Counted from the first letter of the stretch, positions 21,316 to 30,206 are shown. The stretch is DNA of 64,000 nucleotides from Catalimonadaceae bacterium JC749 (GCA_021730635.1 JAJNNC010000005.1:310001-374000); one strand, 5' to 3'. The notes: a model not told the origin generated them from the sequence alone. Numbers and translations: made by a program.

Positions 21316-21357
21316 AAGAGCTAGCTGGGTGAAACCAGTAGCTCTTATTTTATATTA
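21316..21357. terminator. bidirectional terminator between convergent genes
   Basis: AAGAGCTA and TAGCTCTT arms, with inner CTGG/CCAG pairing, enclose a small loop; the plus side continues ATTTTATATTATTTTT and the minus side leads from a purine stretch. It lies in the 57-bp gap between the flavin reductase gene and the convergent zf-HC2 gene. Confidence 0.65.
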
Positions 21358-22218
21358 TTTTTCAAGATTCTTGATTTCCTGAGACGCTGGTAAAGTCATC
21401 AGCTTGGTGTTGTCTTCCTCTTTTTCTACCTTCTGAATATCAAGTTTTTCCAGAACAGGCAGTGACTGAATTTGTGTATCCTCCTCTGAAAATTGTTCTT
21501 CGTTTTCCTCCGGCGATTGCTCTTCAGCTATGTTCATCTCCTTGGTATTTCTCACCACTGGTTTGATTTCTTCTGCCGCGGTTTTTTCTTCACCTAATGT
21601 ATTTTGCTTTTTAGCAGCAGGTTTCACCACTGTTGGATTCTCCTGCTGGACAGGCGTGGGTTTTACTTCCTTGCTGCGCTTGTGAACTGATAAGTTGGTT
21701 TCCGCACTTTGCATAGCCAGGGCCGACTGGGGTTCTTTGTCAGAAATACTTGATTCTGTCGGATGAGGGTCATTGATCTTTTGTTCTTTGGGAAGGGTTT
21801 TGGATTCTGCCTTTTTTGTATTAGGGGCAGTTTTATCCTTTGTCTGGATTTTTGTTTGACCTTCTGTAAAATGATTTTTATTGATAACGGTCTTTACGGC
21901 AAAAAAAGAAAATACAACCATGAGGAGCAGGGCTGCTGCAGCTCTCAGTATTTTCACCTGGGTGGTGGAAAGCTTTCTACTTGTCGCATTTTCCTTTGTC
22001 TTTAATTTACCTTTCAGCTGTTTGTGATGTACTTTTAGTTGCTGTGGTTCTTCCGATTGGATAAACTGAAGTATTTCATTGGAACAACGTTCGCAGTGTG
22101 CCAAGTGTAATTCTACTTCTTTGATCTCCTGGGCGCTGAGTTGCTGCTGCAGGTAACGACCCATTCTAGATCTGGAAAGATGAGCACTGAACTCTGTGGC
22201 TTTTAACTTGTGATCCAT
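21355..22218 (-). CDS. zf-HC2 anti-sigma-like membrane protein with long acidic tail
   Basis: A 287-residue protein. The N-terminal domain has the zinc-binding anti-sigma pattern H-x3-C-x2-C (His 38, Cys 42, Cys 45, in HLAHCERC). A basic linker leads to a single membrane helix around residues 87-110 (LRAAAALLLMVVFSFFAV). The rest is a low-complexity periplasmic tail rich in Glu, Lys, Pro and Thr. Such proteins bind and hold ECF sigma factors at the membrane, but no sigma gene is adjacent: the upstream side is a 428-bp AT-rich gap. An anti-sigma role is therefore inferred from the domain only. Confidence 0.8.
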   Translation of the reverse strand: MDHKLKATEFSAHLSRSRMGRYLQQQLSAQEIKEVELHLAHCERCSNEILQFIQSEEPQQLKVHHKQLKGKLKTKENATSRKLSTTQVKILRAAAALLLMVVFSFFAVKTVINKNHFTEGQTKIQTKDKTAPNTKKAESKTLPKEQKINDPHPTESSISDKEPQSALAMQSAETNLSVHKRSKEVKPTPVQQENPTVVKPAAKKQNTLGEEKTAAEEIKPVVRNTKEMNIAEEQSPEENEEQFSEEDTQIQSLPVLEKLDIQKVEKEEDNTKLMTLPASQEIKNLEK

Positions 22219-23907: not shown

Positions 23908-26358
23908 TTAGAACTCCAGTCGATAGTTGAGGACAGGAATGAGCCCTAACTGATAGCTATTCTCTACTTTTTGGGTAACGGAGTCAAAGTAACGGCTGTA
24001 GAGGTTCTGGCGCCCTGTCACGTTCTGGATATCCAGGGAAAGGATGCTGGAATATCGGGGCTTATTACGACGGTAACTAATCCGCAGGTCGGTTCGAAAA
24101 TAAGTACCTATTCTGTCTGAATACCTTTGATCCCAACGGTAGATGCCCCATCCTTCCCGTTGAGAGGCTGCCAGGTCTAAAGGGGTATCACGGTTTCCAC
24201 CAGCCAGCAGGGTTCGTGTGTTAATCCCTAACAGGTTGTCTTTATTTTTCCCCATGGAAAATTCTTTTCCCAGTAAAAGATTAACAATATAATTGCCATT
24301 GAACCGGGTATTGTATTCTTTACCATCCAGAGGGGTATATTTGGATTGATATAAAGAGGTGGTTAGCATGTAGTAATACTGATTGGTAAAGAATTTCTCA
24401 AGGGTAAGCTCTACGCCATAATTACGCCCGGTACCCTCACTGACCAGGGGTATATTGACTACCCCTTCCTCATAATTAAGCATAGAATAGGTAGGATACC
24501 AGGGAAAGGGCATACCTCCCTGTATACCAATGGGAATATCATGCAGATACTGGTAATAGGCTTCTATTTTCCAGTGTAAATCTTGCCGGAGGAGCTGATC
24601 GTAGCCCAGCACAAAATGGCGTGCTTTGGGCAAATCCAGTTGTTTATTGGGCTGCGAATAAGCTACTTCCGGGTTCAGTCTGAATTTAGCAAAATAAGTC
24701 GTCAGAGGGTCCAGCCGGCTGTGCATACCAAAGCCAATGTTAAACGATTGGGTAGGGGTAATCATCCATTGTACCCCTAACCGGGGTTCCAGCGACTGCG
24801 CTTGGTTGAGAGCAAAATACATGTGATGTGCGCCGGTATGAAAGGTTACCTTTTCATTGAGTCTGTATTTCCATTGCACAAAACTTTGTAACAATTGGGT
24901 GCTGCCTTCATTATCTACTTCAATGGTGGTCGTATCCAGGCGTGTAGAAGCTGAAAACAGATCAAACTGTAAATGGCTGATAATCAGTCCTGTTCTCAGG
25001 GTATGCTTTGCATTGAACTTATGATTTAGCAAAACTGTGCCTCTCAGGTCCGTCTTATCAAATTTCTGATGATATCCGTATCTGATTTCCGGTTCATCAT
25101 CCTGAAAGCTGTTGAGGCTGTTGGAAACGGAAAGAATACTTTCCAGATAGGTTTTATCGCTCAGAAAATAGGTATGCGATAAGCCTCCTACACCCATCCG
25201 GTAGCGAAAAACCTCCTGGCCCAAGTCCTCTCTGACATTCTCTCGACTTAAGCCTCCCAAACCCCATACAGAGAATATTCCTGCCTTCTGAGAGGGTATC
25301 ATCACCTTAAAGGCAAGATCCTGAAAATCAGGAACGGCATCCCCGTCAATGGAAACCCCAATTTCATTGAGTATTGCCAGGGTAGAATAACGATAGTTCA
25401 CCAGATAAGAAGCGCTGGCATCCTGACGAAAAGGACCTTCCGCGGCAAAATCCAGTCCCAGGAAGCCTGCTTGGAAAGCATATTCTCTCTTTTCATTATT
25501 TCCTTTTCTCAACCTGATATCAAAAACACCAGAGGCTGCATTGCCATATTCAGCCGGAAAAGCGCCGGTATAAAAATCAGAATTATCCAACATGTTGACA
25601 CTCAACATGCTGACAGCCCCTCCGGAGGCACCTTCATCGCCAAAATGATTAGGGTTGGGCACTTCTATGCCTTCTACTTTCCAAAGAATTCCACGGGGCG
25701 AGTTGCCACGAATTACAATTTCATTGGTACCATCGTCGGTAGAGGCAACTCCGGCAAAGGAAAGGGCCATCCGGGCAGGGTCGTTGACACTGGCAGCATA
25801 CCGTTTGGTTTCTTCCACGGTGAATGAGCGGGCACTCACAAAGGCCATGTCATTATTGGGTTTGCCTTTTTCCGGTTCTGCGGTGATCACGATTTCTTCC
25901 ATGCTGAGCAGCGATTCTGTCAGGCGGACGGTCAGCACTACCTCTTTCCCGGAACCTACTTCCAGTTCAGAAATCAGTGCTTCCTGGTACCCTATGGAGG
26001 TTATCTGCACATGACGCCGGCCTACCGGCACGTTCTCAATACGGAATCTGCCTTCTGCATCTGTACTGCTGCCCAATACCGGTTCGGTATGTAACACAAC
26101 TACGTTGGCTCCTGTCAAAGGGATTTGCGATTCCTGATCAATCACTGTGCCCCGGATCGTTTGGGTAAGTGCTTGTGCCCACAGCAAAGAGACAGGAAAG
26201 AGAAAGACAATGCTCAAAGCTACCGCTTTATGTTTGATTTTTGGGGTTGTTTTCTGTTCCCGTTGCTGTTCATCGTACAATTTGACTGACATTGCCCAGC
26301 CTCGGGCATAACTCTGGTGGATACGCAACAAATAGTTGCGTAGAGAAGAATTTCTCAT
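23908..26358 (-). CDS. TonB-dependent receptor with carboxypeptidase-like N-terminal domain, no STN domain
   Basis: An outer-membrane receptor of about 816 residues. I start it at ATG 26358, because the frame above this overlaps the upstream gene without a homologous look. After a basic N-terminal stretch and signal anchor (SIVFLFPVSLLWAQ) comes a CarboxypepD_reg domain (IRGTVIDQESQIPLTGANVVV to SIGYQEAL), a plug domain (NDPARMALSFAGVASTDDGTNEIVIRGNSPRG), and a long barrel ending in LGLIPVLNYRLEF with the terminal Phe. No STN signalling domain is present, although the gene lies in a sigma/FecR cluster; the STN is on the preceding protein. Ligand is unknown. Confidence 0.92.
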   Translation of the reverse strand: MRNSSLRNYLLRIHQSYARGWAMSVKLYDEQQREQKTTPKIKHKAVALSIVFLFPVSLLWAQALTQTIRGTVIDQESQIPLTGANVVVLHTEPVLGSSTDAEGRFRIENVPVGRRHVQITSIGYQEALISELEVGSGKEVVLTVRLTESLLSMEEIVITAEPEKGKPNNDMAFVSARSFTVEETKRYAASVNDPARMALSFAGVASTDDGTNEIVIRGNSPRGILWKVEGIEVPNPNHFGDEGASGGAVSMLSVNMLDNSDFYTGAFPAEYGNAASGVFDIRLRKGNNEKREYAFQAGFLGLDFAAEGPFRQDASASYLVNYRYSTLAILNEIGVSIDGDAVPDFQDLAFKVMIPSQKAGIFSVWGLGGLSRENVREDLGQEVFRYRMGVGGLSHTYFLSDKTYLESILSVSNSLNSFQDDEPEIRYGYHQKFDKTDLRGTVLLNHKFNAKHTLRTGLIISHLQFDLFSASTRLDTTTIEVDNEGSTQLLQSFVQWKYRLNEKVTFHTGAHHMYFALNQAQSLEPRLGVQWMITPTQSFNIGFGMHSRLDPLTTYFAKFRLNPEVAYSQPNKQLDLPKARHFVLGYDQLLRQDLHWKIEAYYQYLHDIPIGIQGGMPFPWYPTYSMLNYEEGVVNIPLVSEGTGRNYGVELTLEKFFTNQYYYMLTTSLYQSKYTPLDGKEYNTRFNGNYIVNLLLGKEFSMGKNKDNLLGINTRTLLAGGNRDTPLDLAASQREGWGIYRWDQRYSDRIGTYFRTDLRISYRRNKPRYSSILSLDIQNVTGRQNLYSRYFDSVTQKVENSYQLGLIPVLNYRLEF

Positions 26359-26393
26359 TGTTCTGGAAGGTTTGGTGTAAGAAAAGAGAAGCG

Positions 26394-26414
26394 CAGACGG
26401 CCACAGGCCGTCTG
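26394..26414. promoter_or_regulatory. perfect 9-bp hairpin between STN-repeat gene and receptor gene
   Basis: CAGACGGCC and GGCCGTCTG pair around ACA in the 62-bp gap. On the minus strand the hairpin is followed by a pyrimidine stretch with scattered T. It could attenuate transcription into the receptor gene or protect the upstream mRNA end; a full terminator is not evident. Confidence 0.55.
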
Positions 26415-26420
26415 AAATGG

Positions 26421-28280
26421 TCAGAAGCGCAGACCCACCTGGAAACCAGGCCACATTTTCACATTTGTTCTCTTATTGGGAAAGTCATTTCCCAAATGGG
26501 GACTCTGTTTGGTAAAGGTTCTATCATAGACAGTCCAGGGAGCCAGGTCTGAGCCAATAGAATTGTTCTCCGTATTCGTCAGTTGCGACACCATGACATT
26601 GAAAGTAGGGGCGACAAACAGGCCAAAGTGTTCCGAAAACTGTTTGCTGAATCCTATTCGAACTACATTCAGCAGGTTCAGTTCTTCATTGTCAAACAGT
26701 CGGTTGTCTTCTTCAAAAATGTTGTATGAAATCAGGTCCAGGTTCATATGGAAAGTAGAGGAGGAAGGAAATTGAGTGCCTATGCCATAGCCCAGCCCCC
26801 AGCGGAAGGTAGCATCGGTAAATTGAGTGCCCACTGCAAAAATGTTGTAAAACCTTTCCACCCCAATCTTAAAGCCTACATTCGCATGCAGGGACTCACT
26901 GCCCCATACTTCTAGCGCACGATACCCGTTCTTCCTCACAATACTTAAAAAGCCAATAGGCACCCCGTCGACACTGTCCGCTACATTGAAGACGGATAAC
27001 TGCACACCTTTCACGTTGCGGGCAATATTGATAAATCCACTGCCCTGGAAGCCCTCCACATCACCGGAAGTGACATTGGCAAATCCTGCCAGCTGAATGC
27101 CATTGACATTTTCTGCCACATTGGCAAAGCCCGCCATTTGTCCTCCGTCTACAGAGTCTGTCGCAATATTTAAAAAGCCTGCCCCTTGCACACCATCCAG
27201 CTTACCGGCGGCTGTGTTCATGAAACCGGCAAACTGGGCTCCGTGCACATTCCCGCCACTGACGTTCAGAAAACCTGCCATTTGAGCGCCCTCTACATTC
27301 TCTCCACTGATGTTGAGAAAGCCGGCCATCTGTGCCCCATCCAGGCGGCCACCATTGATATTTAAAAAGCCTGCTCCTTGTACGCCATCAACCTCATTCT
27401 TCACCAGATTAAAAAAACCAGCAAACTGAGCCCCGTGCACGAAATCGTTTTCCAGGTTGCCAAAGCCGGAAGCCTCAAAACCTTCCAGACCTGCGGCATA
27501 TCCCACCAGAAAATGTAAGGAAATTTCATTCACGTATTTACCGGCGGACACTCCATTGGTACTGATAGGGTAGATCAGGCCAAAGTGAAAAGGTCTGGTT
27601 TCATAATCCGATTCTTCAGGAAGATGGTGAAACAAAAGTTCGTCGAGTCCCTGTTTGATTTTTTCTGACAAGGAAATGCCTGAAGCACGGCTCACGGTTG
27701 CCTCTTCCTCTGGTTGCTCATTGGTCTCAGCCTGGTTGGTTACTGGTTCTATAGGTTCCACTTTCTCCCGGACTGGTTCAGCAGTGACGGTGGGTTCTTC
27801 CGTAATTTCATCAGTAGTTTCAGAAACAGTGGGCTGTTCGTCTTCTTTACTTTCCTTTTTGACACTTTCAGGAGTTTTGCTAGCCTTACCGGGAGAATCG
27901 GTGGCTGGTGGCGGAGCAGGGGCTGTTTGCTGGCTTTGTTCCTTTTCGGGTTCTGCTTTTATCGCTTTGTTAGCATCCTTTTTCAACACGATCTGTCCGC
28001 TCACCAGCTGATAGGAAAGGTCGGTATCCTTTAATATTTCATCGAGCGCCACATACAAGGGTTGGTTCTCTATATGAATCGTGAGGGACAGGTCGTCCGG
28101 TATCTCATTATTCAGGTAAGAAAAGTTGACACCATATTCCTGATGAATGTTCTTAAGAATCTGCTCTATCTCTGCATTCTGATAATGGAAAGATACAATC
28201 TGATCCAGGATATTGTTCTGTGTGATCAGGGTAAAATTCAGGCATAACAATGCCATGATGAGTATTTTTATGAATCTCAT
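26421..28280 (-). CDS. STN-domain protein with 16-residue surface repeats (LA_2272-like)
   Basis: A 619-residue exported protein that I place in no single named family. Residues 1-20 are a signal peptide. Residues about 24-101 form an STN domain (AEIEQILKNIHQEYGVNFSY to GQIVLKK), the type that signals to FecR. A Pro/Glu/Thr-rich linker spans about 105-200. From about 283 to 441 there are about ten 16-residue repeats of the form G-x-Q-x-A-G-F-x-N, like the LA_2272-type surface repeats. The C-terminal 170 residues look barrel-like and end GFQVGLRF. It sits between fecR and the TonB receptor, which lacks an STN domain. Confidence 0.85.
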   Translation of the reverse strand: MRFIKILIMALLCLNFTLITQNNILDQIVSFHYQNAEIEQILKNIHQEYGVNFSYLNNEIPDDLSLTIHIENQPLYVALDEILKDTDLSYQLVSGQIVLKKDANKAIKAEPEKEQSQQTAPAPPPATDSPGKASKTPESVKKESKEDEQPTVSETTDEITEEPTVTAEPVREKVEPIEPVTNQAETNEQPEEEATVSRASGISLSEKIKQGLDELLFHHLPEESDYETRPFHFGLIYPISTNGVSAGKYVNEISLHFLVGYAAGLEGFEASGFGNLENDFVHGAQFAGFFNLVKNEVDGVQGAGFLNINGGRLDGAQMAGFLNISGENVEGAQMAGFLNVSGGNVHGAQFAGFMNTAAGKLDGVQGAGFLNIATDSVDGGQMAGFANVAENVNGIQLAGFANVTSGDVEGFQGSGFINIARNVKGVQLSVFNVADSVDGVPIGFLSIVRKNGYRALEVWGSESLHANVGFKIGVERFYNIFAVGTQFTDATFRWGLGYGIGTQFPSSSTFHMNLDLISYNIFEEDNRLFDNEELNLLNVVRIGFSKQFSEHFGLFVAPTFNVMVSQLTNTENNSIGSDLAPWTVYDRTFTKQSPHLGNDFPNKRTNVKMWPGFQVGLRF

Positions 28281-28311
28281 TGCTCTTTTTGATTTTAAAA
28301 TTCAATGTTAT

Positions 28312-29331
28312 TTACCGGCAACCTTCTCCAGAAAGGATATAACGGTTGCCTGATTGTTCCAGTGTTAAATTGCCGGTAACGGTCAGTACGTTTAAAATTT
28401 CTGATAAATGGGCCCCTCTGAAGGTAGCTGTGTATCGGCAATTGGCAAGCTCGGCATTGGCTAACGCTATGTCTACGGCATAATGTTCTTCTAAGGTCTG
28501 TATGACCTGCGCTAAACTCGTATTGTTAAATACAAACTCCTGATTTTGCCATGCCCTGAAGTTGGGATCACTGATTTTTTCCCGGGTCATATTGGTCTGG
28601 TCTTCCTCCAAGACCGCTTCCATGCCAGGAGTCAGGAAGATAGAGTTATCTTCACCTGCGGGTGAAAAAGCTACTCTTCCTGTGACGACCTGCACTTTGA
28701 CAGGTTCTCCTTCATAAGCTCTGATATTGAAGGAGGTACCAATTACTTCCGTTTTGGCGCCACCGCTGTATACGGTAAATCTCCTGCCTTCCGCCTTTTT
28801 TACTTCAAAAAAAGCTTCGCCTTCCAGGTAAACAATCCTGTTTTCCAGATTAAAATCTTCAGCATAGGAAAGCCTGGTATTTTCGTTAAGCCATACCTGG
28901 CTACTATCGGGCAGGAAGTGAGATACCTTCTCCTCTTCATAGGTTGCCAGCAAAATCATATTCTCTTGTTGTACCATTTGCCAAATAAAAAAGCCTACTC
29001 CAAAAACTAGTATTACCGAAGCTGCGAGGGCCCACCACTTACGATACAAAGGAAGTTTTCGTTCTTTGGGTGAATCGCCTTTCAGATGATAAAGTCCTTG
29101 TTCACTGTCAATGCTGAACCGGAAACGTTGCCAGCCGCGATCTACGTCCGGAGCGTAGTGTTGGCTGGGGGCTGTGGTCCGGTGCCACATGGTTTCCATC
29201 TGTTCTACCGCAGCTTTATTGTCAGTGGAGCTTTCTTTCCAGCGATCCAGTGCGCGCTTCTCACTTTCTGAAAGCTCTCCTTTCAAATGTTTGGCTACTA
29301 ATATCCAGATTTCATCATCAGCATGTTTCAT
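28312..29331 (-). CDS. FecR-family anti-sigma regulator
   Basis: A membrane-spanning regulator of about 339 residues that binds an ECF sigma factor in the cytoplasm and receives a signal in the periplasm. In order: N-terminal DUF4880-like cytoplasmic helices (LKGELSESEKRALDRWKES), one membrane helix (ALAASVILVFGVGFFIW), the FecR domain (VYLEGEAFFEVKK, TEVIGTSFNIRAY, VQVVTGRVAF), and a C-terminal DUF4974 domain (FNNTSLAQVIQTLEEHYAVDI). It lies directly downstream of the sigma gene (about 155 bp) and 31 bp before the STN-repeat gene. Confidence 0.94.
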   Translation of the reverse strand: MKHADDEIWILVAKHLKGELSESEKRALDRWKESSTDNKAAVEQMETMWHRTTAPSQHYAPDVDRGWQRFRFSIDSEQGLYHLKGDSPKERKLPLYRKWWALAASVILVFGVGFFIWQMVQQENMILLATYEEEKVSHFLPDSSQVWLNENTRLSYAEDFNLENRIVYLEGEAFFEVKKAEGRRFTVYSGGAKTEVIGTSFNIRAYEGEPVKVQVVTGRVAFSPAGEDNSIFLTPGMEAVLEEDQTNMTREKISDPNFRAWQNQEFVFNNTSLAQVIQTLEEHYAVDIALANAELANCRYTATFRGAHLSEILNVLTVTGNLTLEQSGNRYILSGEGCR

Positions 29332-29498
29332 TGACCTTACCAACTATAGTGAATACAGATAACAGAAATGATACCCTACCCTGGGTTAAAAATTTTTAGA
29401 ATATTTTTGTACAATCCCTTCACAAAAGGAGATAGAAGTTGCCGATGGCACTGGTGGAGGCTGGAAACCACAGGCAGTTTCGCCCAAAAGAACAGGGA

Positions 29499-30206
29499 TT
29501 ACACACTTTTTGTGTCATTGGTAAACGTTTTTAAATGTTCCCGTAAAATCCGGAGGGCTTTACTCATATGTTTTTCCACAGCCTTCTGGGAAATGTCCAG
29601 GGTTGTTGCTATTTCCGCATAACTCATTTCTTCATACCGGCTCATGGAGAAGACCATTTTGCATTTGGGCGGTAAGGCGTTGAGGGCTTCCTGGATTTTA
29701 ACATGCATCTCCCTGGCATCCAGGTCTTCCTGAGTCGTATTAGCACTGAAAGCATTGGCATAGATGCTGTCTTCATCCATAGAAGTGTTCTTCTTATGTT
29801 TCTCCAGATAGTTGAGCGCCGTATTCATACAAGACCGGAAGAGGTAGGATTGTATAGACCGGGATGCATCCAAATGCTCTTTTCTGCGCCAGACTTTGAT
29901 AAAGACATCCTGCACAATATCTTCGGCTGCATCGGTATCGCGTACGATATTATTGACAGACTTACAGAGAGAAGCATAGTAGGTGTGGAAAAGATATTCT
30001 ATAAATTTCTCTTCATCCGTTTCTTTTAGCTTTATAAGATACGCTTGTTGGTCCAGGGAGCGGGAGTGTTCGGAAGCGCTATCATGAATTTTTGCAAATA
30101 ACCAGCGAAATAATAAAGGAATAAAAGGGGAAATAGTCGGATCAGCTGACTGATTGCCTTTGAGGGGTAGGGAGGGTGCATCTAAGGTTAGATGACTGTA
30201 AAGCAT
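29499..30206 (-). CDS. ECF RNA polymerase sigma factor
   Basis: A sigma-70 family factor with only regions 2 and 4. Region 2 is EEKFIEYLFHTYYASLCKSVNNIV through AEDIVQDVFIKVWRR; region 4 is LPPKCKMVFSMSRYEEMSYAEIATTLDISQKAVEKHMSKAL. It is 235 residues from the first possible Met, about 45 longer than usual; no later Met precedes region 2, so the real start may be a non-ATG codon near residue 50-60. With FecR and the STN/TonB genes downstream on the same strand it forms a cell-surface signalling cluster. Confidence 0.92.
   Translation of the reverse strand: MLYSHLTLDAPSLPLKGNQSADPTISPFIPLLFRWLFAKIHDSASEHSRSLDQQAYLIKLKETDEEKFIEYLFHTYYASLCKSVNNIVRDTDAAEDIVQDVFIKVWRRKEHLDASRSIQSYLFRSCMNTALNYLEKHKKNTSMDEDSIYANAFSANTTQEDLDAREMHVKIQEALNALPPKCKMVFSMSRYEEMSYAEIATTLDISQKAVEKHMSKALRILREHLKTFTNDTKSV

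Follow-up and report, generated by a model that had tools for sequence, protein, structure and literature searches.

An STN domain on a tethered solenoid-barrel protein adjoining FecR: a probable variant of FecIRA-type signalling in Bacteroidota

Results

Four genes on one strand

The locus discussed here lies in a 64,000-nucleotide stretch of DNA from Catalimonadaceae bacterium JC749 (GCA_021730635.1 JAJNNC010000005.1:310001-374000), called the window below; all coordinates count from its start. The minus strand carries four genes, in the order sigma factor, FecR-type anti-sigma factor, repeat protein with an STN domain, and TonB-dependent receptor (TBDR) without one (Table 1). A preliminary description, made from the DNA sequence, had read the genes in this order on one strand, with a receptor that begins with a CarboxypepD_reg domain and lacks STN, and with a repeat protein composed of an STN domain, a Pro/Glu linker, about ten 16-residue GxQxAGFxN repeats and a barrel-like end. 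Gene coordinates and domain order are both confirmed by the analyses reported here.

The sigma factor gene adjoins the FecR gene on the same strand. Its product scores 162 bits against the NCBIfam model TIGR02985 (cut-off 126.4), and Sigma70_r2 and Sigma70_r4_2 are detected by Pfam. According to the coordinates, 31 bases separate the FecR gene from the STN-repeat gene, and 62 bases separate the latter from the receptor ATG. These short gaps make an operon likely. In the gap that separates the STN-repeat gene from the receptor start lies a 9-bp G+C-rich hairpin, CAGACGGCCTGTGGCCGTCTG (window 26394-26414, minus strand), which may reduce read-through to the receptor gene.

Table 1. Features of the locus in window coordinates; residue numbers refer to the encoded proteins
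Feature	Position	Strand	Evidence
ECF (extracytoplasmic function) sigma factor (TIGR02985, Bacteroidota Sig70_bacteroi1 subfamily)	29499-30206	-	NCBIfam and Pfam
FecR-type anti-sigma factor	28312-29343	-	Pfam, AlphaFold2 model, PupR match
STN-like C-terminal domain of FecR (residues 269-339)	28327-28539	-	Pfam, AlphaFold2 model, PupR match
STN-tether-solenoid-barrel protein, 619 residues, proposed outer-membrane transducer	26421-28280	-	Pfam, AlphaFold2 model, gene order
STN domain (residues 26-103)	27972-28205	-	Pfam FecR_C/STN, pLDDT ~95, PupB match
Pro/Glu/Thr-rich disordered tether (residues 109-200)	27681-27956	-	pLDDT < 50, composition
Beta-solenoid of ten 16-residue GxQxAGFxN repeats (residues 226-452)	26925-27605	-	Repeat register, beta-helix match, LA_2272 model
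C-terminal eight-stranded OmpA/NspA-like beta-barrel ending in Phe (residues 453-619)	26424-26924	-	VIA matches, model strands
TBDR without STN: CarboxypepD_reg, TonB-box-like MEEIVITA, Plug, barrel	23908-26358	-	Pfam, motif, 58-member comparison

The STN-bearing protein

The 619-residue protein was modelled with AlphaFold2 from an alignment of 43 homologues (mean pLDDT 84.8), and its fold matches were made with the structure aligner VIA. Foldseek, when run with the whole 619-residue model, gave no match at E < 0.001, and the domain matches are taken from VIA instead. Behind a signal peptide (approximately residues 1-22) follows the STN domain. In Pfam, residues 31-101 pass the cut-off for FecR_C (3.2e-6, 27.5 bits against 24.4) and fall just under that for STN (PF07660; 4.1e-5, 23.7 bits against 28.4). 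In the model, residues 26-108 match the PupB signalling domain from the PupR complex (6ovk_B) with a Z score of 9.8 and an rmsd of 2.4 over 80 residues. CarbopepD_reg_2 is matched by 18 of the 43 homologues.

The borderline STN score could be taken to mean that the domain is a remnant or passenger, and that it takes no part in signalling by the cluster. However, STN and FecR_C matches recur in many family members, with 24 of the 43 homologues matching the STN model at E up to 0.1 (best 4.5e-19). The region is modelled with a pLDDT of about 95, and its presence tracks FecR adjacency almost perfectly (see below). A vestigial role is therefore very improbable.

The tether has 20 Glu, 13 Pro and 12 Thr among its 92 residues. 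In the solenoid, ten GxQxAGFxN-type units are placed at 267-425, within a repeat region of residues 267-433, at a period of 16 residues (15 twice). The protein has 11 copies of the core motif, whereas 0.67 are expected from shuffles. Residues 226-452 match an antifreeze domain of beta-helical fold (3p4g; rmsd 2.5 over 219 residues, Z 20.3), and the C-terminal half of the model has a pLDDT of about 97. The resemblance to LA_2272-type repeats that had been suggested earlier holds for the family: NF047436 is matched by 36 of the 43 homologues (E up to 0.1, best 3e-26) and NF047437 by 33, while the window protein itself scores 14.8 bits with NF047436 (cut-off 25).

In the predicted model, residues 449-619 match eight-stranded barrels (6x9z, Z 13.9; the N domain of OprF, 4rlc, 13.2; NspA, 1p4t, 12.8; OmpA, 1qjp, 12.2). 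The last residue is Phe in 25 and Leu in 8 of 40 family members, and outer-membrane barrels are expected to end in such a residue. If the C terminus of an eight-stranded barrel is periplasmic, its N terminus is periplasmic too. Since the predicted barrel is eight-stranded, the solenoid, the tether and the STN domain are all expected to be periplasmic. The preliminary description had spoken of a surface-repeat protein. Display of the repeats on the surface is probably wrong, because the modelled beta-solenoid precedes the eight-stranded barrel with its C-terminal Phe, which would leave the chain in front of the barrel on the periplasmic side.

The anti-sigma factor and the receptor

The FecR protein is recognized by the Pfam models FecR (6e-16) and FecR_C (8.6e-18). 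Its AlphaFold2 model (pLDDT 88.5) consists of N-terminal cytoplasmic helices, a single transmembrane helix that coincides with the hydrophobic stretch (residues 102-124), a periplasmic FecR fold, and a C-terminal STN-like domain. Residues 128-340 match PupR of the PupR-PupB complex (6ovk_R, Z 21.1, rmsd 3.6, 206 residues), and the periplasmic part also matches the Parabacteroides anti-sigma factor BDI_1681 (4m0n, Z 22.9). The two-part periplasmic fold of PupR is thus present in the model. Its STN-like domain (residues 269-339) is the expected docking site for the STN domain of the repeat protein.

Two cysteines of the STN-like domain of FecR, residues 302 (in an NC... context) and 342 (in a terminal GxGC), are nearly invariant in the aligned set, and are scarcer in FecR proteins that adjoin SusC-size receptors. 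They possibly form a disulphide.

In the receptor, Pfam detects CarboxypepD_reg (1.6e-16) and Plug (3.2e-5), and no STN domain up to E = 1. There is also no room for one, because CarboxypepD_reg starts at residue 67 of the 816-residue form. The TonB-box-like MEEIVITA is found at residue 153. Among PDB sequences, the receptor has no real match that could serve as a solved relative.

Gene order in Bacteroidota

Homologues are found in 39 of 59 related genomes, and in a wider search of the phylum, 78 of 296 genomes contained matches to a repeat-barrel profile. The gene neighbourhoods that were read include 40 with a repeat protein at the centre, 20 that came from the phylum search, and 60 with a FecR gene at the centre (this set is partly selected by FecR); the resulting counts rest on a simple open reading frame (ORF) picker and on related genomes. 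Of 74 repeat-family proteins, 41 carry an STN domain, and 40 of these are encoded directly after FecR on the same strand. Among the 33 proteins without STN, a single one follows FecR. The association has a Fisher p of 1e-18, which is not corrected for kinship. As STN tracks FecR adjacency in this way (40/41 against 1/33), chance is excluded as the reason for the arrangement, which recurs in numerous genomes. The two exceptions look like ORF-calling or frameshift effects. For the STN-bearing protein in L060, a FecR just upstream is present in the search results but was missed by the ORF picker; the protein in L073 starts inside an STN-like tail, and its gene appears frameshifted. In about ten cassettes, the STN protein is followed by a short repeat paralogue without STN.

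A TBDR is found within the next three genes in about 17 of about 40 cassettes, and no STN domain was found in those TBDRs.

Repeat-barrel homologues gave only scattered matches in phage and plasmid collections. Two unannotated phage records, labelled human faecal phage (MT835586.1 and MT837802.1), contain homologues with 29-39% identity, and are perhaps misassigned Bacteroidota DNA. On a Hymenobacter volaticus plasmid (NZ_CP095062.1, L237:5920-7724), the STN part (195 residues, annotated as DUF4974) and the solenoid-barrel part (387 residues) are two annotated genes, which come after a sigma factor, a GIN-domain protein and FecR. The two-gene form either is natural or results from a frameshift in the sequencing.

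Carriers of the STN domain

In a de-duplicated set of 94 FecR/STN pairs, the STN domain is carried by a solenoid-barrel protein in 39 cases, by a TBDR in 47 (32 SusC-size and 15 FecA-size receptors), and by other or broken proteins in 8. Among the other carriers are four STN proteins, encoded directly after FecR, that are small, barrel-like and devoid of a solenoid (372-408 residues; L161:2528-3646, L145:3878-5017, L162:2463-3629 and L194:2412-3638). Another protein in this position (L057:7746-9152, genome G014) has 468 residues, with STN, CarbopepD_reg_2 and a C-terminal part without Pfam match.

The subfamily of the window receptor has 58 members, 55 of them without STN and mostly also without a sigma factor or FecR nearby. 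All 15 members that adjoin a repeat protein lack STN, and the two encoded directly after FecR (L147 and L209) have it. Among the orphans, one (L051) has STN and 40 do not. The placement of STN is complementary: it is on the receptor if the receptor follows FecR, and on the repeat protein if the repeat protein follows FecR. The preliminary description had spoken of STN as moved from the receptor. For the window receptor, such a move is not supported: absence of STN is the usual state of its subfamily, cassette members are spread over several lineages of the receptor tree, and the direction of the change is not shown by these data.

The mutual exclusion of STN on receptor and repeat protein could also mean that the TBDR is the real sensor, and that the solenoid-barrel protein is an adaptor on its periplasmic side, which relays the loaded or TonB-engaged state to FecR through the tethered STN. 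A TBDR, usually of the window subfamily, follows in the approximately 17 cassettes already mentioned, in several gene orders, and the predicted periplasmic solenoid could touch the plug side of the receptor. More than half of the cassettes, however, have no TBDR in the next three genes, and most of the receptor subfamily (40 of 58) occurs without a repeat protein. An adaptor role is possible, but somewhat doubtful.

In the FecR tree, proteins with a solenoid partner fall into several groups and are mixed with those that have a TBDR partner, as expected if either STN carrier works. The mixture fits repeated exchange of the carrier, although many branches are long and weakly supported. We also considered a single origin of the solenoid cassette. 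The tree does not support it: 11 label changes are required for the FecR proteins with a solenoid partner, and well-supported branches make 3 of these unavoidable. In view of the many long and weak branches, this is a soft result.

Elsewhere in the window, the minus strand encodes a zf-HC2 anti-sigma-like protein (21355-22218), with a hydrophobic stretch that resembles a transmembrane segment and a Glu/Pro-rich tail. No sigma factor gene directly adjoins it.

Discussion

The closest known systems are FecI-FecR-FecA and PupI-PupR-PupB. As in these, an ECF sigma factor is encoded together with a FecR protein that has FecR and STN-like periplasmic domains, and with an adjoining STN partner. The partner next to FecR is an outer-membrane protein also in the window, if its location is judged from the predicted barrel. 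In contrast to FecA and PupB, this partner is not the TBDR: STN is on a tethered solenoid-barrel protein, and the receptor, with CarboxypepD_reg and Plug, lacks it. As STN on the transporter is one of the usual defining features of FecIRA systems, and is absent here, we class the cluster as a variant. The STN domain matches PupB and the periplasmic region of FecR matches PupR, and hence each of the two window proteins has a counterpart in a single complex of known structure. Taken together, the cluster is probably a variant of FecIRA-type cell-surface signalling with an outer-membrane transducer that is not a transporter.

From the domain make-up, the gene order and its conservation, the exclusive placement of STN and the predicted folds, we infer how such a system might work. 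The small barrel would anchor the 619-residue protein in the outer membrane, with the beta-solenoid in the periplasm, and the long flexible tether would span the periplasm and end in STN. There, STN would dock on the FecR encoded in the same cluster, at its periplasmic STN-like domain. Binding of STN requires both FecR subdomains in the PupB-PupR pair (PMC7186176), and in the FoxA-FoxR pair STN shields the anti-sigma factor against proteolysis as long as the signal has not arrived (PMC11637429). By analogy with PupB/PupR and FoxA/FoxR, docking may stabilize FecR and hold the sigma factor in its bound state. When something changes at the outer membrane, the STN domain would be altered or pulled back, regulated proteolysis would cut FecR, and the sigma factor would turn on its own operon, including the TBDR. 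The signal may be a ligand at the loops of the barrel, the state of an adjoining TBDR, or stress on the envelope that is sensed through the solenoid. That ligand sensing has been handed to the repeat protein, as the preliminary description proposed, can only be inferred.

Placement of STN outside the transporter is not without precedent. In the PUMA3 system of Pseudomonas aeruginosa, STN is found on VreA, a separate protein of the periplasm that is mostly soluble and has a TolA/TonB-like domain at its C terminus (PMC2729926). VreA and the window protein are thus alike in being STN carriers other than a TBDR in a sigma/anti-sigma cluster. They differ in that VreA has the TolA/TonB-like end and no barrel, whereas the window carrier has a predicted beta-solenoid and outer-membrane barrel. 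In Bacteroidota, the STN domain of SusC proteins works in anti-sigma signalling (PMC7782687). The STN-bearing SusC proteins of ECF-controlled polysaccharide loci resemble the window system in directing STN towards an anti-sigma factor, and share the pairing of STN with a CarboxypepD_reg-like domain that is seen in many solenoid proteins. Unlike SusC, the window carrier is not a transporter. The LA_2272 and VC2662 proteins (NF047436 and NF047437) have the 15-16 residue repeat in common with the window protein, but their family descriptions contain no link to STN or FecR, and the "surface" in their name is not supported by the predicted topology of the window protein. Among the papers searched, those that name LA_2272 do not, to judge by title and abstract, deal with signalling. 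In the same papers, the STN domain was linked to anti-sigma signalling at the outer membrane of Bacteroidota only for SusC, and an earlier description in the original Dma1 or ECF classification work is possible.

The Dma anti-sigma factors combine an anti-sigma domain, a transmembrane segment, a disordered tether and a C-terminal barrel (PMC13088901). Like the window system, they connect an outer-membrane barrel through a long disordered tether to the control of a sigma factor, and they are confined to Bacteroidota. In Dma, anti-sigma domain and barrel are in one chain, whereas in the window the transmembrane and anti-sigma part is in FecR, and the tether and barrel are in the STN protein, with the two joined by the expected STN-FecR docking. 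Together with VreA, Dma makes the idea of a separate sensor less new than the preliminary description supposed.

The parallel with Dma raises the alternative that the system senses no ligand, but the state of the outer membrane or envelope. Barrel and solenoid would then report assembly, stress or spacing, as a two-part counterpart of the one-chain factors. A protein in genome G044 (L040:6634-9190), encoded after a sigma factor gene, is of interest in this context. A cytoplasmic-looking N terminus, a transmembrane helix, a long linker and an LA_2272 solenoid-barrel end are present in this single chain (L040_7), which looks like a one-chain Dma-type form with the barrel type of the window protein. 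Its N terminus, however, matches no Pfam family. The FecR clusters with STN on small barrel-like proteins without solenoid would also suit a report on the envelope. The sigma factor that partners Dma is of group ECF21, and the window factor, which belongs to TIGR02985, may or may not be of this group. Against the envelope reading, the system has no known stress regulon or phenotype. We regard pure envelope sensing as rather unlikely.

Several points also weigh against the non-transporter transducer that we favour. The genomes are related and the counts are not independent, so that the Fisher value overstates the certainty of the association. The periplasmic siting of the solenoid depends on a barrel that is predicted to be eight-stranded. 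Solenoid and barrel could be structural, with STN merely a stabilizer of FecR. Finally, only about 17 of about 40 cassettes have a TBDR within three genes, and therefore the TBDR need not belong to the mechanism.

In Bacteroidota, STN could be a portable key to FecR, carried by a transporter, a tethered solenoid-barrel protein or a small barrel. The cassettes would then represent a large signalling class with a sensor other than a TBDR, maybe independent of TonB energy, and a split, two-protein form of Dma. We put this wider proposal forward tentatively, at slightly less than even chances. The STN placement of the window itself links classical FecR signalling to the recently described one-chain Dma anti-sigma factors, and gives a testable role to solenoid-barrel proteins that are now annotated as hypothetical. 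In the Fec, Pup and Fox systems, one receptor both signals and transports, which makes the two activities hard to separate. The presence of STN on a separate tethered protein instead of the transporter, in JC749 and many relatives, points to a possible uncoupling of sensing from uptake. Cassettes of this kind are a natural means of finding out whether signalling depends on TonB energy and on transport of the substrate.

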